Below are positions 40,801-58,372 of a stretch of 64,000 nt of DNA, piece by piece. Both the position numbers and the translations under genes were made by a program. Numbering within the stretch: position 1 is the stretch's first letter; every line of letters starts with the position of its first letter. Origin of the DNA: a virus. The stretch lies in the IMG/VR virus record IMGVR_UViG_3300033153_007973, positions 126,001 to 190,000 of that record; one strand, 5' to 3'. A model generated the notes under the pieces. That model was not told where the DNA came from, searched no databases, and saw only the letters and a program-made list of their open reading frames with translations.

Positions 40801-42979
40801 TGCTCATACTCACACATATCTCGATAATGACTTAACCATTAGTGGTGACTTTGTCGCTAGTGGAGACATTACGGCCATTGGATATAATATTCCCAATAGA
40901 TTTGCTATGCCAGTGACATATGATTCTGCTGGTATTAATGCAGCTATTGATACATTAGGGTCCATGGGTGGAGAGATATATCTTCCTGCTGGAGATTATG
41001 ATATTACGGCAGAAATAACTATAGATTACTCCAAGACCAAAATCATTGGTGCTGGAAGAGCTACTCAGTTATGGGCTAGTAATCGTGCGGCATTTGACGA
41101 TGCCACTAGTACGCTATCAGTTGATGATACGATTACTGGAAGCGTCAACTCCTATACTGCCATCGTCCGTAGGATTGTCTATGATACGGCCACAACCGGT
41201 ACTGTTTGGTTTACCGACCTGAGTAATTCCGCTGGATTCAACGATGACGAAGTGTTGGCCAGCGGCGGTAATGACATCACTCTGAATGGAGCTTCTGTCC
41301 AACCGAACTTTGACGTATTTTTAGCAGCAGGTGGAAAGAATGAACTTACTTTTGCTAATTTTGTTATTTGGGGTGCGTCGGGCAGTGGTAACACAAAGCA
41401 TGGAATAACCCTTGCCATATCTGACGACACCATTGTTGATAATGTCACGATCAATAGAACTGGAGGTAATGGGATTGTCGCATTGGCTACTAGTAGCCTT
41501 CGTGTAATGAATTGTTATATCAACTACGTTGGTCTTGTTGGCATATCGTTCGGATCTGGGGATAACATGTTTATCCGTGGGAATACTATTATTGGCTCTG
41601 GTACTAATGATATAACATGCACGGGAGCCGATCGACTACGAATAATGGGCAACTTTATCAATGGGGATTCAATTGCTGGTAAGGGTATCGTTATGACTGG
41701 CAGCAACAATTGTATTGTTGCTGGTAATCACCTGCTCAATCATACTACAGTAGGTATTGAAGAGTTAGCAAATTGTGACAACAATATCATCTATGATAAT
41801 GATACAGAGGGAGAGTCCACTCCGTACGACCTCAAAGGCATAAATTCAACATACCAACTAATGGAAGGCGGAGTCAACGATTTCGTCGGCGGTATACTTC
41901 GGGACATCGCCGATCCTATGCAAGATCAGGATGCTGCCACCAAGGCATATGTAGATTCCAATACGGAAGTATCTGGCGCCGTGGCCACACATGAGTCTGC
42001 CTGGGACCATGATAACTTTGCAATATCCGGCCATGACCATGACGCCGACTACGAAGTCTCCGGAGCTGTAGCATCACATGAAAGTACGTACGACCACGAC
42101 GGATATGACACACATCTCGCTGATGATACCAAGCATCGAACGATAAATGACTCAGGGTATGGAGACACCGATCTCTGGTCGGCGAACCAGATCAGTGGAG
42201 AACTTGCGGGCAAGGCAGATACAGGACATGGACATACCCTAGATGATCTATCAGATGTGGTCATCTCAGCACCGACATCCGGCGCAGCTCTTATCTACAA
42301 TGGATCAGACTGGATCGATGATACACTCAGTGCTGCCGATGCAGATGCTATCCACGACAATGAAGCATTCGAGATCAGCGGAATAACAGAAAAGACCACT
42401 CCAGCCAGTACAGATTTGCTTGTCATTGAAGATTCGGCTGCAGGCTATGTGAAGAAGCGAGTTCAAGTAAGCAAACTAATATTCCCAACATTCCATTTCT
42501 TCGCAGATCAGTTTGACAGCCCAAATACAGCAGATTGGGCAGTAAATAATTCAACTAGGGCGTTTGCAGATAGTAACAACAGTGCATTAACTGTCCGTGA
42601 ATTTGATGATACATCTGAAGAGGGAGTCGGAATGATTATAGAAATTCCGACTGGTGCAACTAATATAGTTATCTCACTTAGGTCCAGACCTGAAACAGGA
42701 GCGGCTTCTAATCTTGGGGTTGTGCCAAAACTGTATGTCCGAGAGATGCCAGATAACGGAGTCGTTGAATCGTGGTCGGCAGGAACCGATATGACAGCAA
42801 TTACAATGGGAACGTCAAATGAATATTTTCAATATGATACTCAGACGATTGCGTTGACCACGTTGTCCCTTGTCGCAGGAAGGATTGCTCAGATAGAACT
42901 GACTCGTAATACAGGAAGCGGAAGCGATACACTCGTGGATGACTGGAATCTTCTTGAGCTGAAGGTGAGTTTCACATAA
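37835..42979 (+). CDS. Giant tail fibre with HxH repeats and beta-helix domain
   Basis: 1714 residues, ATG overlapping the previous TAA. Six copies of the DLWSA block and HDHDADYE motifs are spread along residues 100-920 and 1370-1470. Residues about 235-400 hold a domain with TKGQAVYINGSTGM. Residues about 1022-1340 form a right-handed parallel beta-helix: AAIDTLGSMGGEIYLPAGDY, then repeating short strands such as TIVDNVTINRTGGNGIVALA and NMFIRGNTIIGSGTNDITC. This is the fold of tailspike polysaccharide depolymerases, although no catalytic residues can be named. The C-terminal 170 residues form a distinct head domain. Likely a host-surface binding fibre with possible glycan-cleaving activity. 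Confidence 0.7.
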   Translation: MAFRITTTGAPDPVVFDDLGARSFSHPTTGYDLLLEFSQDEINNSVDIQDAIDISGITVVDEFGNSITSVSNENIMSRTTYDMNQNGVVDDVDSIGGLASGDLALAGHTHNDLYEVSGAVDTHEVAWNHDSFALSSHDHDADYEVSGAVASHEITHDHDSYDTHLASGELHREINDSGYDATDLWSAQKISGELVNSDQLSELNDVTISAPVSGELLTYNGTEWIDGGNAFIDGNLDVSGDLTGITLYGDGSNITNIGTSVSNAVTIDARVNEAGGITKGQAVYINGSTGMTPQVGLCDNTDPAKTGIYALAAETRTHGQSILIRREGILNGVNTNSWNTGDKLYPSTAGALTNVIPTGAVKSAGVVVTKHISLGVILVSTGIKDWYVSAASGQDIDLRMGDNAGATHIAFENYNDDEVAHIDSLGNGYLSGDLTISGSLTDGTNATTPAQIRSHIDDTDKHREINDSGYGSTDLWSADQISGELAGKSDTSHTHDDLYETSGAVDSHESTWDHDNFSIVSHDHDADYEVSGAVNTHESAYDHDGYDTHLADADKHREINDTGYGVTDLWSADKISGELASVEGDLDEKVKISSNDTTSDYLSNKISGDAGDIVVSEENDGGNEYIKIDIGNNVSGAITHANVTTGNPHSLDASDVGADPAGTAASAVSTHESTWDHDSFSISGHDHDADYEVSGAVTTHESAYDHDGYDTHIADDTKHRTINDSGYSVTDLWSADQISGELAGKSDTSHNHDERYYTEDESDSLFEASGAAVTVVSAHESAWDHDNFSVVSHDHDADYETSGAVTAHEGTYAHGDIATNSAHRTTTTGNPHNLDHNDVGAEVSGAVDTHESSYDHDGYDTHVADADKHREINDSGYGPTDLWSAEKISGELENVSGGTGATELDELTDVTLSGPASGEVLLYNGAEWVNDTVSGAGGTDPNAIHDNVPSEIQAITQKVSPIGTDIVLIEDSEATWAKKRAQLSDFPAAAHTHTYLDNDLTISGDFVASGDITAIGYNIPNRFAMPVTYDSAGINAAIDTLGSMGGEIYLPAGDYDITAEITIDYSKTKIIGAGRATQLWASNRAAFDDATSTLSVDDTITGSVNSYTAIVRRIVYDTATTGTVWFTDLSNSAGFNDDEVLASGGNDITLNGASVQPNFDVFLAAGGKNELTFANFVIWGASGSGNTKHGITLAISDDTIVDNVTINRTGGNGIVALATSSLRVMNCYINYVGLVGISFGSGDNMFIRGNTIIGSGTNDITCTGADRLRIMGNFINGDSIAGKGIVMTGSNNCIVAGNHLLNHTTVGIEELANCDNNIIYDNDTEGESTPYDLKGINSTYQLMEGGVNDFVGGILRDIADPMQDQDAATKAYVDSNTEVSGAVATHESAWDHDNFAISGHDHDADYEVSGAVASHESTYDHDGYDTHLADDTKHRTINDSGYGDTDLWSANQISGELAGKADTGHGHTLDDLSDVVISAPTSGAALIYNGSDWIDDTLSAADADAIHDNEAFEISGITEKTTPASTDLLVIEDSAAGYVKKRVQVSKLIFPTFHFFADQFDSPNTADWAVNNSTRAFADSNNSALTVREFDDTSEEGVGMIIEIPTGATNIVISLRSRPETGAASNLGVVPKLYVREMPDNGVVESWSAGTDMTAITMGTSNEYFQYDTQTIALTTLSLVAGRIAQIELTRNTGSGSDTLVDDWNLLELKVSFT

Positions 42980-44406
42980 TGGCTATGCAATTTGATGGTG
43001 TGAGTCAAGCTCTTGTAAGTGACGCAGTCATTACTGTGCCAACTGATGGAACTATATGCTTTTGGGTCAAAAGAGACAATATCGGATCTATTCATACATT
43101 AATTTATGTAGAGGATAACTTCTTAATTAGATTTAACACCAGTAATGAAATACAAACTATCTTACGCAGACATAAAGCAAAAGGAACTGAAAGTAATGCA
43201 ACGATAACGTCTACTACACAGTGGTATCATGTCGCTTGTTATTATACTAATGCAGGCGTAAATGGCATATTCATTAACGGTGTATTTGATATATCGGACA
43301 CACAAACGACGGGAGCGGTTACTAATGATTATTTACGGGTTGGTGATGCTGGCTATGGAACTAATAACTTTCACGGAGTCATTGATGATCTGCGAATATA
43401 TAATAGAGTTCTACCGGCAGATGAAGTGGCAACAATATATGCATGTAGAGGTACAGATGGAATACATTATGGATTAGAATATAGATGGGCACTGAATGAA
43501 CCAACGCCTATAGTTTGGAGGGATACAGTCGGAACGGTCCACCCGTATGGTGTTGCAATTTCCAACGGAAAGATTTATATAGCAGAATCGCCTCCATTAG
43601 CTTCTGGTGATAAAATTACTGTATGGGATGAAACCGACTTGTCATATATCACTTCATTTGGTGCTAATGGACTAGGGAATGGGCAGTTCCGCGATCCAAG
43701 AGGGATTGCCATTTCAAACGGTAAAATCTATGTAGTTGATTTTGGTAATGATCGTGTTACTGTATGGAACGAGTCCACGTTGGCATGGGAATCGAATTTT
43801 GGATCGACGGGAGCTGGTGATGAGAACTTTTCGGGCCCCATAGGAATAACAATCGACAATGGGAAGATATATATAACAGATGAAGGCAATAATCGGGTAT
43901 GCGTGTGGGTAGAATCCGGATTGACGTGGGATGCAAATTCGGGAGCCGTTGTGTCATCCCCGAGGGGGATCGGAGTAGCAGATAGTAAAATATTCATCGC
44001 GTCATTTATTGGGGATCAGGTGGTTGTCTTAAATCAATCGGACCTATCAGCCAATACGACATTCGGGTCGAGTAACTTAGATGGTCCACGAGGTCTTCAT
44101 ATTGCCAACGGGATTATATATGTTCTTGATAATGCTAACGCCCGTATAGCGTTTTTTGATTTGTCTGATTATTCCCTATTGCTGTCTTATGGTTCAAGTG
44201 GTTCAGGAGTTGGGCAGTTTTCATCGTTGAGAGAAATTACCTCTATCCACAATCGAGTTTATGTATCAGACACACTCAACGCACGAACAGCCCTACTAAA
44301 TTATAACGGCAATAAATTGATAGATTTGGCAGGTAGTATTGATTTATTATATGTAGATTCACCAACTGCGGTGGGAACAGAACTAAAATTCAGGAGGAAT
44401 GCGTAA
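42979..44406 (+). CDS. LamG-like domain fused to NHL-type beta-propeller
   Basis: 475 residues, TAATG junction with the giant fibre gene. Residues 1-160 form a LamG-like domain (DGTICFWVKRDN, TQWYHVACYYTNAGVNGIFI, DDLRIYNRVLPADEVATIYA). Residues about 175-455 contain five to six propeller blades with the NHL pattern: PYGVAISNGKIYIAE, DPRGIAISNGKIYVVDFGND, GPIGITIDNGKIYITDEGNN, SPRGIGVADSKIFIA, GPRGLHIANGIIYVLDNANA, REITSIHNRVYVSDTLNA. Both folds bind ligands such as glycans. I know of no common phage fibre with this pairing. It is probably a virion adhesin, given its place among the fibre genes. Confidence 0.7.
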   Translation: MAMQFDGVSQALVSDAVITVPTDGTICFWVKRDNIGSIHTLIYVEDNFLIRFNTSNEIQTILRRHKAKGTESNATITSTTQWYHVACYYTNAGVNGIFINGVFDISDTQTTGAVTNDYLRVGDAGYGTNNFHGVIDDLRIYNRVLPADEVATIYACRGTDGIHYGLEYRWALNEPTPIVWRDTVGTVHPYGVAISNGKIYIAESPPLASGDKITVWDETDLSYITSFGANGLGNGQFRDPRGIAISNGKIYVVDFGNDRVTVWNESTLAWESNFGSTGAGDENFSGPIGITIDNGKIYITDEGNNRVCVWVESGLTWDANSGAVVSSPRGIGVADSKIFIASFIGDQVVVLNQSDLSANTTFGSSNLDGPRGLHIANGIIYVLDNANARIAFFDLSDYSLLLSYGSSGSGVGQFSSLREITSIHNRVYVSDTLNARTALLNYNGNKLIDLAGSIDLLYVDSPTAVGTELKFRRNA

Positions 44407-44966
44407 TGGCCGATTATATTATATACGATCCAGATGATGCACTGGTCGCAGATCGCGTAACCGAATATAGGATGAGTGCGAATACCCCTACAGATACTGT
44501 CAACTGGCTGAAGAACCCCAACTTGAGCGACGTATCTGGGGTATCTCAGAAGTACTGGAAAGAGGATTCGGGCTTGGTGGCAGAGATGTCCCAGGGTGAG
44601 AAAGATATCATGGACCATGGGGATCTCACCGCCCACAAACAGACAAGGTATGCTGAAATCGACGATAAGACTGTTTCTTTGATATCCGAAGGATTTACTT
44701 TTGACGGGAATGTGTTCAGCCTATCGGTGCAGGCGCAGACAAATATCAACACGATCAAGAATAATTCTAGTGTATTTACATGGCCGCTTGCTGTCACAAC
44801 GAATGACAATAATGTATATATGCTATCTGAGGCAAATCTTCCGGGATACTGGGGGGCGGCGATGGTGGCGACAAAGACAAATCTTGATACTGGACGATCG
44901 CTGAAGAAGCTAATCTTTGATGCTACAGACAGAGCAGGCATAGATGCTGTGGTAGACACAAGATAG
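44406..44966 (+). CDS. Probable tail-fibre accessory protein
   Basis: 186 residues, starting in a TAATG junction. The segment around residues 98-125 (GFTFDGNVFSLSVQAQTNIN) is close to the pattern seen in phage fibre-accessory proteins (DUF4376-like), where F-x-G-x-x-F-S followed by a helix recurs. N-terminal 60 residues are mixed. Last gene of the fibre block; a 78-nt gap follows before the glycan cassette. Likely a fibre assembly or tip protein. Confidence 0.5.
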   Translation: MADYIIYDPDDALVADRVTEYRMSANTPTDTVNWLKNPNLSDVSGVSQKYWKEDSGLVAEMSQGEKDIMDHGDLTAHKQTRYAEIDDKTVSLISEGFTFDGNVFSLSVQAQTNINTIKNNSSVFTWPLAVTTNDNNVYMLSEANLPGYWGAAMVATKTNLDTGRSLKKLIFDATDRAGIDAVVDTR

Positions 44967-45044: not shown

Positions 45045-46178
45045 ATGAAAGTCGAATACCTCAGTGAAGCATTCAAGAACAGTGGGTATGGCGATGCCAG
45101 TCGCCGCAATATCATCCTGCTAAAGAGAGCAGGTTTTGATGTCTCAGTCACACAAATAGATAGTGATGATACCAAGCTATCTGATGACTGGAAGTATCAG
45201 GAATGCAAGCGCCTCAAGAACAAGTTCAATGATCCTGACATAAGAATTTCTCATATCTTAGCCTGTGCTATGGACAAAGTCCATCGCGACGGCGTCAAGA
45301 ATATCTGCTACACTACCTGGGAGACTGATCTTCTCCCAACAGACTGGGTCGCAAAGCTCAACAAGTATGCTGATGAGTGTTGGGTAACTGCGACTCGGAT
45401 TAAGAAGGTCTTCGAAGAATCCGGAGTCAAGATCCCAGTCAAGGTCTTGCCACCTACCCTCTTCCCTGAAGACATCAAATCTGCAGATGAGCCCATCAAT
45501 CAGACAAACCTCGATCCAATCATCAACAACCTCAGACCCAAGAACTTTTGCTTTTATTCAATCTTCCAGTGGATCCCACGAAAGAACCCCGATGCACTGC
45601 TCGAGGCATATGTCAGCGAGTTCGATGCCTCAGAACCAGTTACTCTACTTTTGAAGAGCTACAGAGTAGACCACTCTCCGGCAGAAACAAAGGCAATGAT
45701 ACAGACTATTAATAACCTAACGATAGAAATGGGATGCGGCCGAGAGCTCCTACCAGATATACTTCTGATACATGAACAACTCAGCAATGAATCCATGAAA
45801 GCAATACATAAGCTAGGAGACTGCTTTGTTCTCCCCCACCGCGGTGAGGGCACAGGCCTCCCCATTGTAGATGCTATCATGTTCAACAATCCAGTGATCA
45901 CTACAGCATATGGTGGTCCCGAAGACTTCCTTACTGAATACAATCAGAAGAAGCTCCCATATCGGATGAGACCTGTCAGAAATGCTTTCTGGGCATATAA
46001 TTACTTTAACTGCTACATGAACTGGGCAGATGTAGATGTCATGGACCTCAGAAACTGGATGCGTGATGCATATGAACGTAGAGATAGTCCTGCTATTATT
46101 GCAGAACAGAGGAAGAAGCTACTTGATAGCTATGGACAAGATACGACACTTAAAATGGTAAAGGAGATGTTAACATGA
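45045..46178 (+). CDS. GT-B glycosyltransferase (GT4-like)
   Basis: 377 residues, AGGAG eight bases upstream. The N-terminus has the SGYGDASRRNIILLKRAGFD pattern of GT4 sugar-binding lobes. The C-terminal lobe has FCFYSIFQWIPRKNPDALLE and HRGEGTGLPIVDAIMFNNPV, the EX7E-type donor site with Asp in place of the second Glu. Such enzymes transfer a sugar from a nucleotide-sugar donor in the cytosol. First gene of a cassette in which coding regions overlap or nearly touch; the next starts in an ATGA overlap. Confidence 0.75.
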   Translation: MKVEYLSEAFKNSGYGDASRRNIILLKRAGFDVSVTQIDSDDTKLSDDWKYQECKRLKNKFNDPDIRISHILACAMDKVHRDGVKNICYTTWETDLLPTDWVAKLNKYADECWVTATRIKKVFEESGVKIPVKVLPPTLFPEDIKSADEPINQTNLDPIINNLRPKNFCFYSIFQWIPRKNPDALLEAYVSEFDASEPVTLLLKSYRVDHSPAETKAMIQTINNLTIEMGCGRELLPDILLIHEQLSNESMKAIHKLGDCFVLPHRGEGTGLPIVDAIMFNNPVITTAYGGPEDFLTEYNQKKLPYRMRPVRNAFWAYNYFNCYMNWADVDVMDLRNWMRDAYERRDSPAIIAEQRKKLLDSYGQDTTLKMVKEMLT

Positions 46179-46828
46179 GAGTGGTTCTACCATTTAAGAA
46201 TCGGCCAAACTACTTAAGATTGACTTTATCAACTATTAAGGAAGCTATGCGTAGCCGGACTGATATTAAGCTTCACCTCTTTGATGACATGTCTACGACA
46301 GCATATCCTTTAATTATAGAAGAGATGGACCTCATGATTACCAAAAACAGCACATTAGCAGGACCATATCAAGCCACTTCTAGAGCAATCAATGAAGAGT
46401 TTCTTATATGTGAGGATGAATATCTATTCGCACTAGATGCAGACTGCATTGTCCATCCTAATATCTTTAATATTGTAGAAAATATGGTCAAAGATCTCCC
46501 AAAAATGGGATTTGGTACCCTGTTTAATACTGACACACATAAAGTTAAAGCTGGAAATAGGGACGCAAAAGGATATGTCAGAAAGGTATCTATAGGTGGG
46601 TTAGGTTGCATTATTAAAAGAGATGCTTGGGAGTGGTATCGAAAGCAGACAACACAGAAAGGCCCAAAACATAAAGGATGGGACTGGGACTTCTGTTACT
46701 GGCTCGCAACAACAGATCAGTGGCATATCTGTAGTACAATCAATTCATATGTAGATCACATGGGCCAAACCGGTAGCCACAGTGGGCCTTCATGTGAAAT
46801 CGATCGGGCAATTAGGTTCTTGGAGTAG
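46175..46828 (+). CDS. GT-A glycosyltransferase-like protein
   Basis: 217 residues; the ATG overlaps the preceding TGA. Compact GT2-like domain: N-terminal VVLPFKNRPNYLRLTLSTI, DXD-type metal site in LFALDADC near residue 87-92, and a later GLGCIIKRDAWEW segment followed by WDWDFCYWLA. At 217 residues it is a minimal catalytic domain, with no membrane span, so it acts in the cytosol. Sugar and acceptor are not identifiable from sequence. Confidence 0.65.
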   Translation: MRVVLPFKNRPNYLRLTLSTIKEAMRSRTDIKLHLFDDMSTTAYPLIIEEMDLMITKNSTLAGPYQATSRAINEEFLICEDEYLFALDADCIVHPNIFNIVENMVKDLPKMGFGTLFNTDTHKVKAGNRDAKGYVRKVSIGGLGCIIKRDAWEWYRKQTTQKGPKHKGWDWDFCYWLATTDQWHICSTINSYVDHMGQTGSHSGPSCEIDRAIRFLE

Positions 46829-46831
46829 CTA

Positions 46832-47521
46832 ATGACTAAAGATGTAACAGTAACAATGACAACATGTAAGCGATTACATCTTTTCAAGAAGACTATCGCA
46901 TCATTACTCGAGATGTGCGAAGACCAAGATAGAATAGCTGAATGGATAGTCTCAGATGATCATTCCCCCAAAGAACAAGTTGCAGCAATGAAGAAGCTGT
47001 ATCCATTCATGAATGTCCTTAGTTCTTCAGAGAAAGGACATGCAGCTAATCTGAACAATGTGTTTAAACATGTCAAGACACCATATGTGCTTCACTTAGA
47101 GGATGATTGGCGGTTCATCAAGAAAGGTAAGTTCATAAGCAAAGGAATCCATATCATTAAGAATACCACCAGGATAAAGATAGTCGTATTGAAACCTGGC
47201 ATGGGTGACATACCAAAGATAATCAAGGGCGAATCATGTCTCATACATCTATGGGATAAGGATGAGAATAAGGGAAAGTTTGATTACAAGAAGGCAAAAT
47301 GTAAACAGTTCGGACACTACACATTAAACCCAAGTATACAATCTATGGATGCAGTTAGGAAAACTGGTCGATTCAAGAAGCCACCAAACACCGAGGGACA
47401 ATTCACAGGAACATTTTCAAATCATGGATTTAAACTAGCAACACTACCACACCAATATGTAGAACATATCGGCACTGGAGCAAAGAATAGTGCTTACATT
47501 CTAAATAAGACACGGAGATAA
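46832..47521 (+). CDS. GT-A glycosyltransferase-like protein
   Basis: 229 residues, 3 nt after the previous stop. GT2-like: TVTMTTCKRLHLFKKTIASL at the N-terminus, SDDHSP in the nucleotide-binding region, and DXD-type LEDDW near residue 90. The C-terminal half is basic (KFDYKKAKCKQFGHYTLNPS) and ends with HQYVEHIGTG. No membrane span. Second of two small GT-A enzymes in tandem, probably adding successive sugars. Confidence 0.65.
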   Translation: MTKDVTVTMTTCKRLHLFKKTIASLLEMCEDQDRIAEWIVSDDHSPKEQVAAMKKLYPFMNVLSSSEKGHAANLNNVFKHVKTPYVLHLEDDWRFIKKGKFISKGIHIIKNTTRIKIVVLKPGMGDIPKIIKGESCLIHLWDKDENKGKFDYKKAKCKQFGHYTLNPSIQSMDAVRKTGRFKKPPNTEGQFTGTFSNHGFKLATLPHQYVEHIGTGAKNSAYILNKTRR

Positions 47522-47523
47522 TC

Positions 47524-48285
47524 ATGGATCAAATACCAATGCGTTGGTGCGCGGGTCTTGCAAATTGGGGAGACATACTCTCACCATATCTAACTTCACT
47601 AATCTCTGGTAAGAAAGCAGTTTTATGTACAGACATAAGTAAGCCAAAGTACTCAGTAATTGGAAGCCAGATGAATCTTGTGGATCGTAATACCATAGTA
47701 TGGGGAAGTGGATTTATGCTCCCAGCTGACAACTTCCAAAAGGGCCCACCTAAGCAAGTTCTAGCAGTCAGGGGACCCATGACCAGGCAGAGACTGCTTC
47801 AGCTCAAGGTTCCTTGTCCAGAAGTATATGGTGATCCCGCCCTTCTGTATCCAAGATACTATCATCCGAAGGTCGAAAAGAAATATGTTTGGGGCATCAT
47901 TCCACACTACGTAGATGTAAAACATCCATGGCTTAAACGATTTGTAGGTAATCCAAAAGTCAAGGTTATTGATATCACACAATCAATAAATGGATTTGTA
48001 GATGATGTGTTGTCATGTGAACGAATCGTCTCAAGTGCACTACATGGAATAATAGCTGGCGACGCGTACGGTCTTCCATCATACTGGATCGAGCTTTCTA
48101 ATAAAGTCTTTGGTCAGGGATTCAAATTCAGAGACTACTTTGCTTCAGTGAGTCGCCCATCAGTCAGACTTACCCCGGATATGGGCAGACTCAAAGACAT
48201 GTCTGTTCATATGAAAGAGTATAAAGTGAACATAGATCTCAATAAACTTATGGATGCGTGTCCATTCAAGTCAAAGGACATATAA
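47524..48285 (+). CDS. Polysaccharide pyruvyl transferase-family protein
   Basis: 253 residues. The family pattern is clear: GLANWGDILSPYL near the start, VWGSGFM, LAVRGPMTRQRL, YGDPALLYP, GIIPHYVD and SSALHGIIAGDAYGLPSYWI. Such enzymes form pyruvate ketals on sugars using phosphoenolpyruvate (CsaB/WcaK/PssM type). It is somewhat shorter than the usual 300-370 residues but has the motifs of both lobes. In the cassette it suggests an acidic, pyruvylated glycan. It ends one base before the radical SAM gene's start. Confidence 0.8.
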   Translation: MDQIPMRWCAGLANWGDILSPYLTSLISGKKAVLCTDISKPKYSVIGSQMNLVDRNTIVWGSGFMLPADNFQKGPPKQVLAVRGPMTRQRLLQLKVPCPEVYGDPALLYPRYYHPKVEKKYVWGIIPHYVDVKHPWLKRFVGNPKVKVIDITQSINGFVDDVLSCERIVSSALHGIIAGDAYGLPSYWIELSNKVFGQGFKFRDYFASVSRPSVRLTPDMGRLKDMSVHMKEYKVNIDLNKLMDACPFKSKDI

Positions 48286-48286
48286 C

Positions 48287-49573
48287 ATGCATGACATGAT
48301 ACTTATATATTTACCCCATCCATATCTCAATGAGCCCAACGCACAGGCACCCATGGGATTGCTAGCAGTAGGTGCTGTTCTTAAAGAGAACGATTATAAT
48401 ACTGTCGTGAAGAACTACTCCGCGTACTCTATAGATAATGCTATAAAGGATCTTCCAGAGTCTAGGGTCTATGGTATCACCGTGACAAGCCTCGAGCTAC
48501 TTGCAGCTAACAGGTTTGCCAAGAGGATCAAGCAGAAGTATCCTACATGTAACGTGATCCTGGGTGGCCCAGGCACATATGCGGATGAGTTCGTTGATAC
48601 TAATTATATAGACAGTATCTTAAAAGGTGAGGGTGACATAACATGCCTGGAAATGATGCGAGATATGGAGATCAACATCCTTAAACCAGTATACCATGGG
48701 AAACTTGTGACAGATCTAGATACTCTGCCATTTCCTGCTAGAGAGATGCTTGATGGGAATATGGGTGGAAATATCTTCGCATTCAAGAAACAGTACACTA
48801 ACGATGGTAAATCCACAATCCTGCTATCTTCCAGAGGCTGTCCCTTCAAGTGTGCATTCTGTTCTGCGCCTTCTTTCACTCACAACAGTAGGGTTCGACT
48901 CAGAAGTCCAAAGTCAATAGCGGATGAAGTCAAACAAGTCATAGATGAGTATGGTATACGACAGTTTAGGTTTTCTGATGACATGTTTACTGCTAATGCA
49001 AGACATGCTATAGAGGTTAGTAAGGAGCTCCAGAAGCTGGACATCTACTGGCGGGTATCGTGCCGAACCAAGCCACTATCAGAGGACATGCTTAAGGCCA
49101 TGTATGATGGCGGGTGTAAAGAGCTCTCATTTGGTGTAGAAAGTTTCGACGATGATGTCCTAAAGCTATTGGATAAGCGGGCAACATGTGCTGACAATGT
49201 CAGAGCGCTCGAACTCTCTCACAAGCTCAGGTTCACCACTCGAATCTTAATGATGATCAGGACACCTGGGCAAACACCCAAGACAATAGAGGATAACAAA
49301 CACTGGCTAACTAGGGTCCCCTACTCTATCATAGCATGCACCACCTTCGTGCCCATCCCCGGCTCTGATATATGGGACAATCCTGACAAATACAATGTAG
49401 AGATCCTTAACAAGAATCTTGATGACTACAACTTCTACTTCTTTGGACCCGGTGGAGAGAATGAACTAAAGCCCATCCTTAAGATCAAGGATCGTACACT
49501 AGAAGAGTTCCATGCTGAAACAATCGAGTTTCGAGACTGGCTGAAAGAACATACGCAAGTAAATAGAGGATAA
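48287..49573 (+). CDS. Cobalamin-binding-type radical SAM enzyme
   Basis: 428 residues from ATG 48287; the AAGGAC site upstream fits this start better than the in-frame ATG at 48254 inside the previous gene. Residues 1-130 are a B12-binding-type Rossmann domain (APMGLLAVGAVLKENDYNTV, VILGGPGTYADEF, ILKGEGD); the DxHxxG motif is absent, as in many family members. Residues 183-192 give SRGCPFKCAFC, with C185, C189 and C192 holding the 4Fe-4S cluster. Downstream FGVESFDDDVLKLLDK completes the family pattern. These enzymes methylate or rearrange unreactive carbons, for example in sugars and antibiotics. Probably a C-methyltransferase for the glycan, but the reaction is inferred. Confidence 0.82.
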   Translation: MHDMILIYLPHPYLNEPNAQAPMGLLAVGAVLKENDYNTVVKNYSAYSIDNAIKDLPESRVYGITVTSLELLAANRFAKRIKQKYPTCNVILGGPGTYADEFVDTNYIDSILKGEGDITCLEMMRDMEINILKPVYHGKLVTDLDTLPFPAREMLDGNMGGNIFAFKKQYTNDGKSTILLSSRGCPFKCAFCSAPSFTHNSRVRLRSPKSIADEVKQVIDEYGIRQFRFSDDMFTANARHAIEVSKELQKLDIYWRVSCRTKPLSEDMLKAMYDGGCKELSFGVESFDDDVLKLLDKRATCADNVRALELSHKLRFTTRILMMIRTPGQTPKTIEDNKHWLTRVPYSIIACTTFVPIPGSDIWDNPDKYNVEILNKNLDDYNFYFFGPGGENELKPILKIKDRTLEEFHAETIEFRDWLKEHTQVNRG

Positions 49574-49577
49574 GATA

Positions 49578-50270
49578 ATGAAAAGCGTACTTGAAGAGAC
49601 ACAGCTAGAAAGAGATGAGGAACTGGGACCACTGATAGATATCCCACTAAGGTATGTGCAGCAGCTAGGCATTTGCACGCCAGATTCTATAAGAATCTAT
49701 GATGGTAGTGCTCCTATCCGTAATGAAGAGGACTATATAGATCTATATAAAGACTTCAAGAGTTTGGATTTTCATGCATACCTCAGGACTCTGATGTTTA
49801 CAAGTGTTGTTCGTAGAGGACACTATTTTAAAGATACCAAACATAAAGATAAAACATGCTTAGATTATGGTAGTGGTGTGGGAACACACACCATAGTCCT
49901 TCTAGAACGTGGTAACTATGTAGACATGATGGACATTAATGGACCTCTATTAAGATTTGCACATAGTCGTGTTCTAAAGCGTGGATATAAGACAAACATA
50001 CTATATTCTGACGCGGTTCTACAGGATGATCACTATGATATTGTCGTGTGTCTAGATGTCTTAGAACATGTATATGATCCCTATTCTGAATTGGTACGAT
50101 TGCACAAAGCTATGAAGAAGAATGCCATATTGATACTAGAAGTTAGTCTCAAGGTGAAAGAATCATCAGGACATTTCAAGAATAGCATTGATGTATGGGA
50201 GAGTAAAGGGTTAGCATTTCTACGTAAGCATTTCACTCGACAGAGCAATACCAGATGGGTGAAATCATGA
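49578..50270 (+). CDS. SAM-dependent methyltransferase
   Basis: 230 residues. Class I methyltransferase signature: KTCLDYGSGVGTHTIVLLE (motif I), VDMMDINGPLLRFA (motif II) and YDIVVCLDVLEHVYDP (motif IV). A helical N-terminal domain of about 90 residues precedes it. Likely methylates a sugar hydroxyl or small molecule of the glycan pathway. It is 4 nt after the radical SAM gene and overlaps the acyltransferase start by an ATGA. Confidence 0.75.
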   Translation: MKSVLEETQLERDEELGPLIDIPLRYVQQLGICTPDSIRIYDGSAPIRNEEDYIDLYKDFKSLDFHAYLRTLMFTSVVRRGHYFKDTKHKDKTCLDYGSGVGTHTIVLLERGNYVDMMDINGPLLRFAHSRVLKRGYKTNILYSDAVLQDDHYDIVVCLDVLEHVYDPYSELVRLHKAMKKNAILILEVSLKVKESSGHFKNSIDVWESKGLAFLRKHFTRQSNTRWVKS

Positions 50271-50767
50271 TAACAGCCAAACTCATCAAGGGTGCGCATT
50301 GTACTATCTCTCCAGAGTCACACATTGGATACAATGAACATGGTGGCGAGATTATTCTGGGCAATGGAACTAAGATCATGCATAACTGTATCATCCGTAC
50401 GTGTACAGGAACCATCCGCATGGGAAAACTTGTCAGTGTAGGATATAATACTATTATGCACGGACAGGGCGGCATCACCATTGGAGATTATGTTCTGATC
50501 AGTCCTGGAGTTCAAATACATGCACAGAACCACGGTATAAAACGCAATACTCTGATAAGAAACCAGCCAAACACACATAAAGGTATCAATATAGCAAATG
50601 ATGTATGGATAGGAGCATCAGCTATTATTACTGATGGAGTAAGCATAGGACAAGGTGCAGTAATCGGCGCCGGCGCTATTGTCACAAAAGATGTTCCTCA
50701 ATATGAAATATGGGCCGGGAATCCCGCCAAGAAGATAGGAGAAAGACATGAAGATACTGTACTTTAG
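50267..50767 (+). CDS. Left-handed beta-helix (hexapeptide) acetyltransferase
   Basis: 166 residues from ATG 50267, which overlaps the upstream TGA (ATGA). Hexapeptide repeats cover most of the protein: GGEIILGNGTKIMHNCII, GGITIGDYVLISPGVQIHA (with the catalytic-type His in QNHG after it), VWIGASAIITDGVSIGQGAV and IGAGAIVTKDVPQYEIWAGN ending PAKKIGER. Typical of maltose/NodL/WbbJ-type O-acetyltransferases, active as trimers with acetyl-CoA. The end overlaps the next gene by 20 nt. Confidence 0.85.
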   Translation: MITAKLIKGAHCTISPESHIGYNEHGGEIILGNGTKIMHNCIIRTCTGTIRMGKLVSVGYNTIMHGQGGITIGDYVLISPGVQIHAQNHGIKRNTLIRNQPNTHKGINIANDVWIGASAIITDGVSIGQGAVIGAGAIVTKDVPQYEIWAGNPAKKIGERHEDTVL

Positions 50768-51650
50768 CGACCGGTATACATACAACAACTACGGCACAAA
50801 GCGCTCGATATTTGAAGAAGTTAAAAGCAGAGGAATAGATATAATCTGGATAGACACGTCACAAATGAACAAGATACTTCAGCTCATTAAGGAACACTCT
50901 CCAACAATGATATGGCTAGCCAGTTCAGCGCTGTTGCTCAGTCCTGCAGTGAAAGCAAAGATAAAGATACCCATTGTTGGATTTGGTTTCTCGGATCCCT
51001 ATTACTTCAAACCAGATCGGTTTAAGAGTTATGATCTATATGTCACCAACCATATAGGTACCTATGAGAAGTACAAGACTACCATTCCTATGCATTATAA
51101 CCAGACAGCATGTGATTTCAGGTATCATAAGGTAATGGATACACCCAAGAATATAGATGTATCAGTCATCGGACTGGGTACCCATCCATGGTTTCACGAC
51201 AAGCAAACAAGGATCAAATTCGTTAACAAATTACGATCAGAGACATCCTATAGAATACTAGCATTTGGTGCCCAATGGAATTCTCATCCCGAGAACCATG
51301 GATTTATTACTGGAGAGAAGTTTCTGCGCATTATCGGTAAGAGCCAGATAGGACTGGATGTGCAAGACGACTGGAGCCCACTGGCGCACCGCATGTTCGA
51401 GTATGCAGCATGTGGGGTACCTGTTATCACCAGAGCACGACCAGAAATTGCTATGGTGTTCAATGACAAGGAAATTATTACATATACCACATACAGCGAC
51501 ATCTTGTCCAAGTTAAACCACTATATGAAACATCCAGAGCAGCTAGCAGAGATTGGCAAGAGGGCACACGAACGATGTAAGAGACAACACAATATCAATT
51601 TCAGGGTGGACGGGATACTACAGTTTGTCAAGAAACACGAAGGAGACTAG
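50748..51650 (+). CDS. CgeB-like glycosyltransferase
   Basis: 300 residues, starting inside the end of the acetyltransferase gene, with AGGAG upstream. N-terminal lobe: MKILYFSDRYTYNNYGTKRS; middle SVIGLGTHPWFHDKQTRIKF; C-terminal HRMFEYAACGVPVITRARPE followed by the Glu/Asp-rich end. This is the pattern of CgeB-family GT-B enzymes, common in phages and spore-coat clusters. Substrate unknown. It ends with TAG directly followed by the next gene's GTG. Confidence 0.72.
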   Translation: MKILYFSDRYTYNNYGTKRSIFEEVKSRGIDIIWIDTSQMNKILQLIKEHSPTMIWLASSALLLSPAVKAKIKIPIVGFGFSDPYYFKPDRFKSYDLYVTNHIGTYEKYKTTIPMHYNQTACDFRYHKVMDTPKNIDVSVIGLGTHPWFHDKQTRIKFVNKLRSETSYRILAFGAQWNSHPENHGFITGEKFLRIIGKSQIGLDVQDDWSPLAHRMFEYAACGVPVITRARPEIAMVFNDKEIITYTTYSDILSKLNHYMKHPEQLAEIGKRAHERCKRQHNINFRVDGILQFVKKHEGD

Positions 51651-52205
51651 GTGCATATCCCTGAAGTATCTAAAGTAATCCATAATGCTGTCGCTTCATA
51701 TGTCAAGAAATATGATCCTTCTACTGTGTTGGATATTGGAGGATTCAGAAGACTGCAACAGTTTCTGACAGCCAAAGTAACTGATGCTAATATCAATAAT
51801 GGAATCGATGGCACGAACCTCCCATATAAAGATAACAGCTTCGATGTCACGACATCGATTGCTACGTTAGAACATGTGAACAACCAAGCGAAATTCATGT
51901 CGGAATCAATCAGAACAGCAAGGATTGCTTCCGTACACTGGTTCCCATTTGGACCTGATGGTCAACGGATAGAAGATCTTCTTAAAGGATATAATCATAA
52001 ACATGACTGTGTCGTTCCAAGTCTATCTATCTTCCTGGATCTCTTCAATCGATATGATTTCAGTGTCCATATGTATCCTAAATACAAAGACCACCTCAAG
52101 AATATGGCACACATAAAACCACAGATTATGAATAGCGATACTATGAGGTTCATTGAGAGATTTAGTTCGAGATCATATGGAATCATACTGGAGATAATCA
52201 AATGA
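51651..52205 (+). CDS. Small methyltransferase-like protein
   Basis: 184 residues, GTG start directly after the upstream TAG with GAAGGAG before it. Motif I is present as STVLDIGGFRRLQQFL and the later motif as SFDVTTSIATLEHVNNQAKF, the pattern of type 11 methyltransferases. Motif I has GGF instead of GxGxG, so activity is uncertain. The C-terminal half (VHMYPKYKDHLKNMAHIKPQ) is unusual. Overlaps the next gene by ATGA. Confidence 0.6.
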   Translation: MHIPEVSKVIHNAVASYVKKYDPSTVLDIGGFRRLQQFLTAKVTDANINNGIDGTNLPYKDNSFDVTTSIATLEHVNNQAKFMSESIRTARIASVHWFPFGPDGQRIEDLLKGYNHKHDCVVPSLSIFLDLFNRYDFSVHMYPKYKDHLKNMAHIKPQIMNSDTMRFIERFSSRSYGIILEIIK

Positions 52206-52930
52206 AGATAAAGCTCTCCGGATATATGATCAGTTATAATGAGAAACCCATTATAAAGTTATCCATCATGAACTTACTACAGTTCGTTGATGAGTTAATC
52301 ATTACCGATGGAGAGAGTACCGACGGCACAGCAGAGCTTCTAGATAGAATGGCTAATAGATTTAGTAAGATCAAACTATATCCAATGCGACAGAGATATG
52401 GCAGAAAGAGAACTGTATCTGGTCGTGAAAGAACTGCCGATGGCTTTAATGAAATGGAACGTAGAACATATGCTATATCTAAGTGTTCGGGCACGCATAT
52501 ATTAATGAAAGATGTAGATGAATTGTATCACGAACACACGGATTTCCACAATCTGATAGAGAAGAATCCTGCATTTCTATCCTTTAGTCAGCTACAATAT
52601 GAAGTAGTGCCAGGAAATAAGTTCTTGCCTCATATACGAATCAATGGCCATCATAGTGTACCAAGACTTATTAAAAACACTCCAGATATAGTCTTCAAAG
52701 ATATACGTAACCTGAATGGAATTGATTGTTGTCTCTTTAGTAACAAGTATAACAAACGACTGGCAGATATCAAGGACATGGTTGGTGCATATAGTATGTG
52801 GCACTACAAAATGATGTTTGATAAGAAACAGCTATACAAGCACTACAAGAGCAAGGATCGGGCAACAAAGCCATTGTTAACATTTCCATCAGAACATAAT
52901 AAATTCATTGACATGGGCAGCTTAACGTGA
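52202..52930 (+). CDS. GT-A glycosyltransferase-like protein
   Basis: 242 residues in an ATGA overlap with the gene before. GT2-like start: KLSGYMISYNEKPIIKLSIM, ELIITDGESTDGTAELLDRM in the nucleotide-binding region, and DXD-type ILMKDVDELY near residue 103-109. The C-terminal half is basic and contains YSMWHYKMMFDKKQLYKHYK. Its stop TGA overlaps the GTG of the small membrane gene (GTGA). Confidence 0.68.
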   Translation: MKIKLSGYMISYNEKPIIKLSIMNLLQFVDELIITDGESTDGTAELLDRMANRFSKIKLYPMRQRYGRKRTVSGRERTADGFNEMERRTYAISKCSGTHILMKDVDELYHEHTDFHNLIEKNPAFLSFSQLQYEVVPGNKFLPHIRINGHHSVPRLIKNTPDIVFKDIRNLNGIDCCLFSNKYNKRLADIKDMVGAYSMWHYKMMFDKKQLYKHYKSKDRATKPLLTFPSEHNKFIDMGSLT

Positions 52931-53061
52931 TATTAGGGATAGTCATTGCATTCTGTGTTGGGCTGCTCGCTGGATGGGTACTGAGATTCTTTTGGATCAG
53001 GTGGCACTACAACAACTGTCGATTTGCACCTATAAGAAGTCTATTTGGAACAGAAGATTAA
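52927..53061 (+). CDS. 44-residue membrane protein hidden between glycosyltransferases
   Basis: GTG at 52927 overlaps the upstream TGA, and TAA is at 53059-53061. The translation has one strong membrane span (ILGIVIAFCVGLLAGWVLRF) followed by a short aromatic and basic tail with FWIRWHYNNCRFAP, ending GTED. The positive residues after the span predict a tail on the cytosolic side. It fills what would otherwise be a 142-nt gap in a cassette without gaps, and the AAGGAG of the next gene follows directly. A membrane anchor for the soluble transferases is possible. Confidence 0.6.
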   Translation: MILGIVIAFCVGLLAGWVLRFFWIRWHYNNCRFAPIRSLFGTED

Positions 53062-53072
53062 AGGAGAATAAT

Positions 53073-53864
53073 ATGAAGATTGTTGCATGCTGGATTTGTT
53101 ACAACAACATTGTGACACTGCCCTACAGTATAGATGCTGTCTATGACCTAATAGATGAGCTAGTCATAGTAGATGGATCCTTTAAAGGAAAGAGGAGCAC
53201 TGATGGTACCTGGGAGTATCTACAGAAACTGAAGGCATCTTCCAAGAAGCCACTGCACATAGTGGCTTCTCAGATGGGGTCTCTCTTCAATAAGCACAAT
53301 GAACATGTGGATGTAACTGGTAACCATGACTCCAACTTATGGACATGGCAGATAGACTCGGATGAGATATATTCTGAGGCTAATGCGAAGGCAGTCAGTG
53401 AAGCTATTCGATCTGATAAATACAATGGCATCATTGTAAAGCTAATGAACATCGAACGATTTATAGATGGAAAGTTCTTCATAGCAAACAATCTTGATAG
53501 GATAGACACCAACCAAATGCGTGTATATCGCATGCATAAAGGTTTGAACTTCAAGACAAAAGACTCGATCTTTGAATGGATAGTATACGAGGATGGATCC
53601 GAGGTACAACGTGGTAACAATAAGATACATGCAAATAGTAAGACTCTAAGAGTGGACCACTATCACTGCCTCGCTACCGTGGAACAGGCGATTGCACGAT
53701 ATAACCACTATGGGAGCAATGATCCAGTTGGAACAGAAGCTAGGATCAGAAGCCCAGGAAACAGCACCGAAGAGATCAAAATGCATGCTCTTGCAACCAA
53801 ATGGTTGCCCGATACCATGACAAATAAAGAATACTATAAGGCTCTCAAGCCTTTCAAAGGATAA
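53073..53864 (+). CDS. GT-A glycosyltransferase-like protein
   Basis: 263 residues from ATG 53073, selected by the AAGGAG directly upstream; an in-frame ATG at 52974 would overlap the membrane gene. GT2-like: VACWICYNNIVTLPYSIDAV, DELVIVDGSFKGKRSTDGTW, and the DXD-type WQIDSDEIYSEANAKAV near residue 95. Later sequence has RMHKGLNFKTKDSIFEW. No membrane span. Related in layout to the gene at 52202. Confidence 0.7.
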   Translation: MKIVACWICYNNIVTLPYSIDAVYDLIDELVIVDGSFKGKRSTDGTWEYLQKLKASSKKPLHIVASQMGSLFNKHNEHVDVTGNHDSNLWTWQIDSDEIYSEANAKAVSEAIRSDKYNGIIVKLMNIERFIDGKFFIANNLDRIDTNQMRVYRMHKGLNFKTKDSIFEWIVYEDGSEVQRGNNKIHANSKTLRVDHYHCLATVEQAIARYNHYGSNDPVGTEARIRSPGNSTEEIKMHALATKWLPDTMTNKEYYKALKPFKG

Positions 53865-53867
53865 GCA

Positions 53868-54167
53868 ATGAAGAATACACTAGTGCCGTATTGGACTAAC
53901 GTAGACATGCAGGAACCTCACATAGCATTTGTGAGTAATTGGGAGCCATTTCCTACAGATGATATTGAGATCATCAACCAAAAACGTAAAGAAAATCCTG
54001 GGACGCCCATTTTGATCCTTATTAGGGACACTCGGATCAGAAAGGAAAATGTGCTTAAGAGAGCCGAGCCGATCATACAATGGATGAAGGATAAGGACAT
54101 CAAGGGATCAGTTATGATCATACCAGATGTCTGTGAGGTCCATGACTTAGATGAGGAGAGTATATGA
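53868..54167 (+). CDS. Small unknown protein in glycan cassette
   Basis: 99 residues, 3 nt after the previous gene. An alpha/beta pattern can be seen: beta IAFVSNWEPFPTDD, helix EIINQKRKENP, beta TPILILIRDTRI, helix and beta KGSVMIIPDVCEVHD. This could be a reduced nucleotide-binding fold, with some likeness to nucleotidylyltransferases, but their HxGH motif is absent. Its end overlaps the next glycosyltransferase (ATGA), so it belongs to the cassette. Confidence 0.5.
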   Translation: MKNTLVPYWTNVDMQEPHIAFVSNWEPFPTDDIEIINQKRKENPGTPILILIRDTRIRKENVLKRAEPIIQWMKDKDIKGSVMIIPDVCEVHDLDEESI

Positions 54168-55126
54168 TGAATCTGCACCTAGTTCCAACTCTTAAGAAGA
54201 AGTGCGGAATAGCCGAGTTTGCCAAAGGACTGAACTCTTATCTTAACATGGAGATAAATGATTCAGTCATTATTTCTCCAGATGTTATCTTACTAGAACA
54301 TGAGTACGCATATGATGGTGATTGTTGGGAACAAATAGAAGTGCTGCGTCCTAAAACCTTTATTTACATGCACTCTGTAAATCTTACCAATCCGAACAAC
54401 CAGATCACTCACAGAAAGATCAACGAGTTATGTGAGGGTGTGTTTGTCTCCACTGAGATCATGAAATCAAAACTCGCTCAGGTTATTACTATTCCTATCT
54501 ATGTAATACAGCACTACTCTGAACCTATCACAGACTCTCCAGACGAGACAAAAGCAGAGAACATTTTCACTATTGGGATGCATGGCTTTGCTGTCCCCAG
54601 AACATGTCTTATCAGAGGCATCATGGAGCTGGGATATAATCTAGATATGCATCTTCATATCGTAAGCACTATTAATGACGTAACTCTGAAACACTTCCAG
54701 ATCTCTAAATCATATCTGGATAGGTGCAGGAGTGTTTGCCGGCGTCAGGGTTTCGAAGATAGAGTTACATTCGATTTTAATTATTACAAAGACAAATCCG
54801 ACATCATTAAAGCACTGAACAAGAAGTGTGACATGATCCTTCTCGTTCAGGCTGATGGTGGTGATACGTACAATGCAAGCGGCACTGCCCGCGTTGCATT
54901 AGCAAGCGGGCGGCCTGTTGTGGTGCCAAGCTATCCTCAATTTGATGGTCTTCCAGAAGGTGTTGTCTATCGTATGAAGGACAACTATAGAGACAGCATC
55001 AGAGAGGTCATAGAAGACCCTCAGAAGGTAATTAACTCAATTGACATACGAAAGGTTATAGAGTATACTGAAGAGACCAGCCCGGCCAACACCGCGGCAA
55101 AGATCAAGGAAATCATGGGGATATAA
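54164..55126 (+). CDS. GT-B glycosyltransferase (GT4-like)
   Basis: 320 residues in an ATGA overlap with the gene before. N-terminus has KKKCGIAEFAKGLNSYL, the GT4 acceptor-lobe pattern also found at the centre of the minus-strand two-domain enzyme. The C-terminal lobe has ADGGDTYNASGTARVALASG and RPVVVPSYPQFDGLPEG, resembling a donor site; the classical EX7E is not clear. Last transferase of the cassette; the stop overlaps the next ATG (TAATG). Confidence 0.65.
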   Translation: MMNLHLVPTLKKKCGIAEFAKGLNSYLNMEINDSVIISPDVILLEHEYAYDGDCWEQIEVLRPKTFIYMHSVNLTNPNNQITHRKINELCEGVFVSTEIMKSKLAQVITIPIYVIQHYSEPITDSPDETKAENIFTIGMHGFAVPRTCLIRGIMELGYNLDMHLHIVSTINDVTLKHFQISKSYLDRCRSVCRRQGFEDRVTFDFNYYKDKSDIIKALNKKCDMILLVQADGGDTYNASGTARVALASGRPVVVPSYPQFDGLPEGVVYRMKDNYRDSIREVIEDPQKVINSIDIRKVIEYTEETSPANTAAKIKEIMGI

Positions 55127-57072: not shown

Positions 57073-57796
57073 GTCCTGCAGCATCTAAGTCCTTATATCC
57101 TAATAGCTTTCCGAATCCCACATAGCCAGAGTCTTTAACATTTCCAACATCCTTAAGATAATAATACATATTCTGGATGGTACTATTTGGCGCCTGTTCC
57201 ATAGAAACAAGGCGCTTAATAAGATCTAATCTGGTTAGTGCTTTCTTCTTATTATCTATATAATCATCGTTAAGCTCTATAACAGGATGAATAGATGAGC
57301 GAAGGTGTCTCTTATATGTCTTATGTATCTTAAGTAATGCTTTTGATGTATACAAAGGAAGCATCCTGAGGAAGTAAGGAAGATACTCTGTATATATTTT
57401 TGTTTTGTTAACTGGTCGAAAGCGTTGAGGCATAACATAGAATGAATCATACCAAAGATCTGACCACAAGGTATCCCACCCATAGATACTTAAGGGCTTA
57501 TGGAACATCTGTCGGAAGGCATCTTGTGCTGCGATGATAGGATAAGTCTTTGTACAGAGTCGCACCACCGTCCAGCATAGCTTCTCATGACGATGGATAT
57601 ACTCATGAAACCCACACCTCTTCGCGATACTACTACTTAGAACAAGATACCTACTCGACTTAAGGAAGTCGAGTAGGTACATGATCGCTGGTGCTACGTG
57701 GTTAATGTCTACTGTGTACGTAAGACTACGATTTCTTGTCTGGTGCCGGATCGTTATATTTCCGTTGGAACCAGTCTGGTACGACTTCTTTGCCAT
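57035..57796 (-). CDS. Unknown protein, convergent with plus-strand block
   Basis: 253 residues from ATG 57796; longer (57856) and shorter (57682) in-frame starts exist, none with a strong ribosome binding site, so the start is open. Basic and rich in Tyr, Leu and His: SSIAKRCGFHEYIHRHEKL, then LPYFLRMLPLYTSKALLK, and a Gly-rich end with YVGFGKLLGYKDLDAAGLRR. No recognised family. It overlaps its upstream neighbour by 71 nt with this start and the plus-strand gene by 38 nt at its end. Confidence 0.45.
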   Translation of the reverse strand: MAKKSYQTGSNGNITIRHQTRNRSLTYTVDINHVAPAIMYLLDFLKSSRYLVLSSSIAKRCGFHEYIHRHEKLCWTVVRLCTKTYPIIAAQDAFRQMFHKPLSIYGWDTLWSDLWYDSFYVMPQRFRPVNKTKIYTEYLPYFLRMLPLYTSKALLKIHKTYKRHLRSSIHPVIELNDDYIDNKKKALTRLDLIKRLVSMEQAPNSTIQNMYYYLKDVGNVKDSGYVGFGKLLGYKDLDAAGLRRIGFSVLNSH

Positions 57797-58084: not shown

Positions 58085-58372
58085 TTATTTAGCTTTATCT
58101 CCCTGGCTGTCTAGGAGGCTGCTCCCCTCCACCATAGGCACGCTGACGTCTCCTTTCATGATTATTGTTGTTACCAGCTGTCTGCTGATGAGCACTGTTG
58201 CCATGAATCCCATTGCTGAGTCGCTCGGATCTGGGATTTTGGTCTCCACTACCATGTCCTTCGCATCGAAGTCCAGGAGTTTCCCCTCCATTCCTGCTGC
58301 TCTCCCGCCCATCATTGGAAGTTCCAGCGATACTATCTTGCCCTTGAATCTTTCCATTACATCGTTGCTCAT
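58085..58372 (-). CDS. Small protein overprinted on the glycosyltransferase tail
   Basis: 95 residues from ATG 58372, which has a perfect AGGAGG six bases upstream; the longer frame starting at 58537 lacks one. The sequence is balanced and protein-like: FKGKIVSLELPMMGGRAAGM, EGKLLDFDAKDMVVETKIPD, then FMATVLISRQLVTTIIMKG. The short strands with GKL-type turns suggest a small beta-barrel (SH3 or Sm-like), an inference only. It lies almost wholly within the last 95 codons of the glycosyltransferase frame, which there is low-complexity, and both frames stop within 10 nt. Confidence 0.65.
   Translation of the reverse strand: MSNDVMERFKGKIVSLELPMMGGRAAGMEGKLLDFDAKDMVVETKIPDPSDSAMGFMATVLISRQLVTTIIMKGDVSVPMVEGSSLLDSQGDKAK

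Follow-up and report, generated by a model that had tools for sequence, protein, structure and literature searches.

The 64,000-nucleotide window analysed here, bases 126001-190000 of the 234,008-bp viral record IMGVR_UViG_3300033153_007973, carries a cassette of 14 putative glycan-building genes (45045-55126, all on the plus strand) directly behind its tail-fibre genes. Within this cassette lies a conserved core of three genes which travel together: a polysaccharide pyruvyl transferase family gene (PyrT), a B12-type radical S-adenosylmethionine (SAM) enzyme gene (rSAM) and the gene of a CgeB-like GT-B glycosyltransferase (CgeB). Our tentative reading, held at somewhat less than an even chance, is that the cassette glycosylates a virion protein in the cytosol, by a pathway of the flagellin type. 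Glycan clusters of phages are as a rule interpreted, without test, as modifiers of lipopolysaccharide (LPS); here the core and its bacterial flagellar homologues together make the specific prediction that a virion protein receives its glycan in the cytosol, which is checkable by mass spectrometry.

The core comprises PyrT (47524-48285; PF04230, E = 8.1e-12), kept in 59 phage clusters, rSAM (48254-49573; PF04055, 1.6e-23) and CgeB (50748-51650; Glyco_trans_1_2, PF13524, 6.7e-25). For rSAM, 22 other relatives are present among IMG/VR contigs, and comparison of their neighbourhoods revealed PyrT, rSAM and CgeB together, partly with the methyltransferases MTa and MTb and the hexapeptide protein HexP, in phages whose structural genes differ considerably. 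As a guard against circular sampling, loci were also searched by PyrT alone, which yielded 182 matching stretches, 79 loci kept from these and, at 80% identity, 59 clusters. The rSAM gene is found in 11 of the 59 clusters and CgeB in all 11 of those; among the 48 rSAM-free clusters, three have a CgeB match, two of them weak and one at a contig end. The p value of the rSAM-CgeB association (Fisher, p = 1.3e-9) is approximate, since the clusters do not all represent independent lineages and the alignment behind the PyrT search was built mostly from loci found by rSAM or CgeB. The gene order PyrT, rSAM, CgeB is retained in 10 of the 11 clusters and permuted in locus L016, and methyltransferases as well as a hexapeptide acetyltransferase often accompany the core. 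In other phages, the core occurs at roughly 30-60% identity; because some of the linked rSAM proteins share no more than about 30% identity with that of the window, the association is regarded as old. An earlier sequence-only reading of the window had proposed searching other phages for the ordered gene set. With the entire cassette as query, megablast found no match in 50,697 phage records, and searches for close relatives with single cassette proteins recovered, beyond the same phage, at most a few others. The presence of PyrT is not enough to define the system: neither rSAM nor CgeB is linked to it in Cobetia phage Carin-5, in Tunturi_5 or in Lak phages. Streptomyces phage SF3, which holds the best rSAM match among named phages, has no annotated glycosyltransferase neighbours. 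In Lak megaphages, the PyrT homologues display 34-38% identity, with neither rSAM nor CgeB nearby in the one region read (L068, Lak-B7). Another PyrT homologue belongs to a glycan cluster of a 462-kb phage (L067, LR756500.1, 2881-12105) that also contains a GT29 sialyltransferase-like gene, a KdsA-like gene of the DAHP-synthase family and a cytidylyltransferase gene; this phage possibly makes CMP-Kdo.

Bacterial homologues link the core to flagella. Bacterial genomes with rSAM are few: two were found, one further among 395 sampled genomes, and one weaker besides the known one in 392 genomes; the scan used only two short patterns, so these counts are lower bounds. Three homologous loci were recovered, two with flagellar genes and one with neuB. 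In a member of the Phycisphaerae (L040), rSAM, MTb and a CgeB-HexP-GT2-GT2 fusion immediately precede fliD, after which comes a FHIPEP-family gene, and the remainder of the contig looks like ordinary chromosome. A 51-kb contig of Myxococcota/Deltaproteobacteria (L039) carries MTb, MTa, rSAM, a carbamoyltransferase gene, CgeB and a PyrT-like gene, mostly on one strand, together with many glycosyltransferase genes, a Maf-type glycosyltransferase gene and a flagellin gene. The third genome combines two rSAM copies, MTb, a CgeB-like gene, a PyrT-like gene and neuB, with no flagellar gene within the 20 kb read. Flagellin glycosylation proceeds in the cytoplasm with soluble donors and no lipid carrier (PMC7591256), and flagellin glycosylation islands carry methyl- and acetyltransferases (PMC4875605). 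The phage cassette resembles such islands in its predicted cytosolic glycosyltransferases and its methyl- and acetyltransferases (PMC4875605, PMC7591256), as well as through core homologues situated by fliD or with flagellin and Maf in two bacteria, but it is devoid of flagellin, Maf and nonulosonate synthesis genes.

The rSAM protein retains the CxxxCxxC motif (SRGCPFKCAFC), with cysteines invariant among aligned relatives, and an N-terminal B12-binding-like domain that scores below the cut-off (PF02310, 24.4 versus 32.1 bits). Its structure model has a mean predicted local distance difference test (pLDDT) score of 85 and a fold matching TsrM, AprD4, CysS, MgmA, TokK and OxsB, so that the family is B12-type by modelled fold. 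By sequence, the best solved-structure match is AprD4 of apramycin synthesis (PDB 6fd2, E = 1.5e-21), a radical SAM diol-dehydratase acting on a sugar ring (PMC5461906). The likeness comprises the best profile match and a TM-score of about 0.7. However, rSAM is only about 17% identical to AprD4 and reaches 61.4 bits against the NCBIfam AprD4 cut-off of 500, and TsrM and other B12 methylases fit its fold equally well. No NCBIfam equivalog cut-off was reached. The reaction on the sugar may be either methylation or deoxygenation. For PyrT and CgeB, profile searches gave no solved structure related by sequence.

Around the core, the cassette is a tightly packed operon. It consists of 13 open reading frames (ORFs) of at least 60 aa plus one of 44 aa, and Pfam agrees with the domain list given by the sequence-only reading: six glycosyltransferases, a pyruvyl transferase, a radical SAM enzyme, two methyltransferases and a hexapeptide protein, with GT2e below the cut-off. 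In front of PyrT lie GT1a (45045-46178), a GT-B glycosyltransferase (Glycos_transf_1, PF00534, 3.9e-8; PHROG 2170 glycosyltransferase, 6.5e-12), and two GT-A glycosyltransferases of family 2, GT2b (46175-46828; PF00535, 5e-8) and GT2c (46832-47521; PF00535, 9.4e-9). Between rSAM and CgeB follow MTa (49578-50270), a SAM-dependent methyltransferase (Methyltransf_23, PF13489, 8.8e-12), and HexP (50255-50767; PF00132, 1.3e-12), which is hexapeptide O-acetyltransferase-like and whose nearest NCBIfam models are sugar acetyltransferases, under their cut-off. Downstream of CgeB are encoded the SAM-dependent methyltransferase MTb (51651-52205, GTG start; Methyltransf_11, PF08241, 2.9e-7), the GT-A family 2 enzyme GT2d (52202-52930; PF00535, 1.6e-8) and the 44-aa ORF (52927-53061), whose translation has one hydrophobic stretch and whose GTG start overlaps the GT2d stop. 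They are followed by GT2e (53073-53864), a weak GT-A family 2 match (PF00535, 0.0023; 18.3 bits against a cut-off of 23.3); its listed ORF starts at 52974, and the start at 53073 fits a 263-aa form in L014. A 99-aa protein with no significant family in Pfam or PHROG (53868-54167) precedes the last gene, GTx (54164-55126), which encodes 320 aa. GTx appears GT4-like by eye (CGIAEF, SGTARVALASG) and may be a GT-B-like, seventh glycosyltransferase, which could not be confirmed: it has no match in Pfam, PHROG or NCBIfam, and its single-sequence structure model (pLDDT 39) is unusable.

The junctions are ATGA or GTGA overlaps or gaps of 0 to 4 nt, with overlaps of 16 to 32 nt at three places, and the widest gap of 43 nt is occupied by the 44-aa ORF; the tight joining and the two small proteins (99 and 44 aa) thus stand as first described. 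Promoter-like sites at the cassette show no excess over chance; hence, no separate promoter is claimed. Recent capture or decay, which had been considered as a counter-explanation, is ruled out by the genome-like GC content (0.415 for the cassette, 0.422 for the genome), the intact ORFs and the retention of the core in other phages. The same phage is represented by another assembly (IMGVR_UViG_3300033143_005075), in which the cassette is identical but for one mismatch and lacks a 115-bp segment (52897-53011), whose absence alters the GT2d C-terminus and removes most of the 44-aa ORF; this difference is either real strain variation or an assembly fault. By Pfam, the cassette proteins include no sugar-nucleotide synthesis enzyme, initiating transferase, flippase, polymerase or oligosaccharyltransferase, in line with the gaps already noted from the letters, and no epimerase/dehydratase, isomerase or sugar kinase. 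Because flagellin-type glycosylation needs no lipid carrier, we propose that the cassette can do without initiating transferase, flippase and polymerase.

In the favoured flagellin-type pathway, soluble glycosyltransferases would add sugars singly from host nucleotide-sugar donors, without lipid carrier or flippase; the earlier suggestion of a glycan built from host donors is supported as probable. The PyrT-rSAM-CgeB core and the methyl- and acetyltransferases would make and attach one strongly modified sugar, with radical deoxygenation or C-methylation, O-methylation and acetylation as likely modifications. The chain would be placed on a phage structural protein before assembly, most likely a tail fibre or other late protein, and might shield or tune the adsorption apparatus. 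Gene content, operon packing, core linkage, the flagellar setting of two bacterial homologues and the lack of known DNA-glycosylation enzymes are established, whereas late co-expression, the acceptor, the sequence of steps, the rSAM reaction and the benefit are inferred. Consistent with a virion target are the intact, packed operon on the late strand behind tail genes, weak Maf-fold genes (MptE-like, PF01973) in the vicinity of the core (phage loci L016, L082 and L112), and structural genes adjoining or near the core elsewhere (tail tip in L016, minor head in L046, portal/capsid in L053, head protease in L084). Several points weigh against it. The phage record holds no Maf/MptE-like (PF01973) acceptor transferase, the FlmG type not having been searched; no acceptor was identified, and the upstream fibres display no striking Ser/Thr tract. 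The bacterial loci number only three, two of them flagellar, and in L039 about 42 kb of the shared contig separate the flagellin gene from the core. Furthermore, the core stands beside lysozyme and DNA polymerase genes in L021/L033 and beside a QueC-like gene in L018, and all cassette functions are derived from family membership. L021/L033 and L018 rule out structural genes as a constant neighbour of the core.

The main competing explanation, doubtful in our estimate, is modification of the host envelope, in which cytosolic glycosyltransferases would extend or decorate the LPS core, an O-antigen unit, the capsule or host flagellin during infection, so that adsorption of competing phages is blocked or loss of progeny to debris is prevented. 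This is how comparable clusters of cyanophages and jumbo phages (parts of PMC7824862) and those beside the tail fibres of pelagimyophages (parts of PMC7029224) have been read. In addition, the homologues found in bacteria are host surface-structure genes in their own right, and a GT9 heptosyltransferase-like gene occurs in L084. Envelope modification, however, has to cope with a cassette that has no initiating transferase, flippase, polymerase, epimerase or sugar kinase, and with its location at the end of the late strand, by which exclusion would come late (timing by position only).

A broader proposal, which we consider rather unlikely, is that of a portable phage sugar-cap module: the core sugar would be placed on virion proteins in phages and on flagellins in bacteria, and the same rSAM family would be re-used with 5-hydroxymethyldeoxyuridine (5-hmdU) DNA kinase and TET-associated glycosyltransferase (TAGT) for DNA-linked groups elsewhere. 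Hypermodification of the phage's own DNA, with the glycan on a modified base as anti-restriction armour, is improbable. It draws on rSAM relatives (about 38-51% identity) which sit with genes of 5-hmdU DNA kinase (HMUDK), TAGT or thymidylate synthase in L030, L032, L034 and L035, and on jumbo phage YerA41 with its approximately 1 kDa oligosaccharide-like substitution on thymidine and several glycosyltransferase genes (PMC9023294). In the window phage, however, DNA is an unlikely target, because the 234-kb record, which is possibly incomplete, has no HMUDK, TAGT or thymidylate-synthase-family (PF00303) match. The HMUDK and TAGT searches found both genes in related DNA-modification loci and thus work; Tet_JBP (PF12851) was also negative in the record, in a search run without positive control. 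Moreover, home-made models of HMUDK, TAGT and thymidylate synthase find no match within 8 kb in any of the 59 PyrT clusters, and the cassette is placed on the late strand, distant from the replication genes. Of the targets envisaged by the sequence-only reading (virion protein, phage DNA or host glycan), DNA has therefore lost ground, and the bacterial homologues point to flagellin-type protein glycosylation. Very improbable, finally, is a small diffusible glycoside or antibiotic-like metabolite in place of a glycoconjugate, for which the AprD4 match and secondary-metabolite clusters proposed in cyanophages (parts of PMC7824862) speak, but six or seven glycosyltransferase genes occur with no aglycone-making gene or exporter in the cassette, and two of the three homologous bacterial loci are flagellar.

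One of the loci just named deserves separate mention. In L030 (9082-13454), the rSAM relative (50% identity) is located between a TAGT glycosyltransferase gene and a 5-hmdU DNA kinase gene, followed by a nucleotidase gene and a thymidylate-synthase-family gene; judged by its genes, this cluster serves DNA hypermodification and includes a radical SAM enzyme. The present analysis names a radical SAM family with members in both glycan and DNA-modification clusters. The family tree is too poorly resolved to tell whether the two contexts form distinct clades.

The claim of an undescribed system was overstated, as multi-glycosyltransferase clusters are already published (sections of PMC7824862 and PMC7029224). 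In jumbo phages and cyanophages, such clusters reach 15 genes (PMC7824862, in part), and the glycan/LPS clusters such as that of P-SSM2 resemble the cassette in about 15 clustered genes, several glycosyltransferases, tailoring enzymes and a large myophage background (PMC7824862, in part). Complete cyanophage clusters differ by having epimerases, isomerases and sugar kinases, of which the cassette has none, and the same sections of PMC7824862 describe no radical SAM/pyruvyl transferase/CgeB core. Pelagimyophages possess glycosyltransferase genes beside tail fibres, sometimes with radical SAM genes (PMC7029224, in part). Their host recognition cluster is thus alike in glycosyltransferases by fibres, and its radical SAM cassettes are gained and lost; compared by description, the sections of PMC7029224 used here report no PyrT-rSAM-CgeB core for it. 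Glycans on capsid and tail tube are established for mycobacteriophages (Freeman et al. 2023, as cited in part of PMC12619734), compared with which, again by description in that excerpt, the cassette is richer in tailoring enzymes. In the open-licence literature, no paper on the PyrT-rSAM-CgeB combination was found. Large phage glycosyltransferase clusters next to fibres and virion glycosylation are hence already known; what is new is that a core can be defined, that it is spread across phages and that it has flagellar counterparts.

The record encodes tail sheath, major head and baseplate wedge proteins and 31 tRNA genes, none of the latter inside the window, and is on these grounds assigned to a jumbo myophage; its capsid protein is about 26% identical to those of named phages. 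Upstream of the cassette are tail-fibre and tail genes (35316-44966, plus strand; Pfam Beta_helix, Laminin_G_3, NHL and DUF4376; PHROG 2837 tail protein), the last of which ends at 44966, 78 nt before the cassette start, so that the placement directly after the fibre genes is borne out. The fibre genes at 35316-42979 contain many repeats of HxH and LHR-IND type modules common to neighbouring fibres. At the other end, P648 (55126-57072, plus strand) abuts the cassette without gap as the last plus-strand gene before a convergent minus-strand region. This orphan 648-aa protein belongs to no family, has its only other copy in the same phage, and is a candidate acceptor or else an unrelated late protein. 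On the minus strand, a 15-bp hairpin with a T-rich tail behind it (57647-57680) is probably the terminator of the convergent minus-strand operon. Away from the cassette, a minus-strand ORF of 913 aa (58095-60836) combines GT4 signatures with a second GT-B-like half and could represent a separate glycosylation activity.

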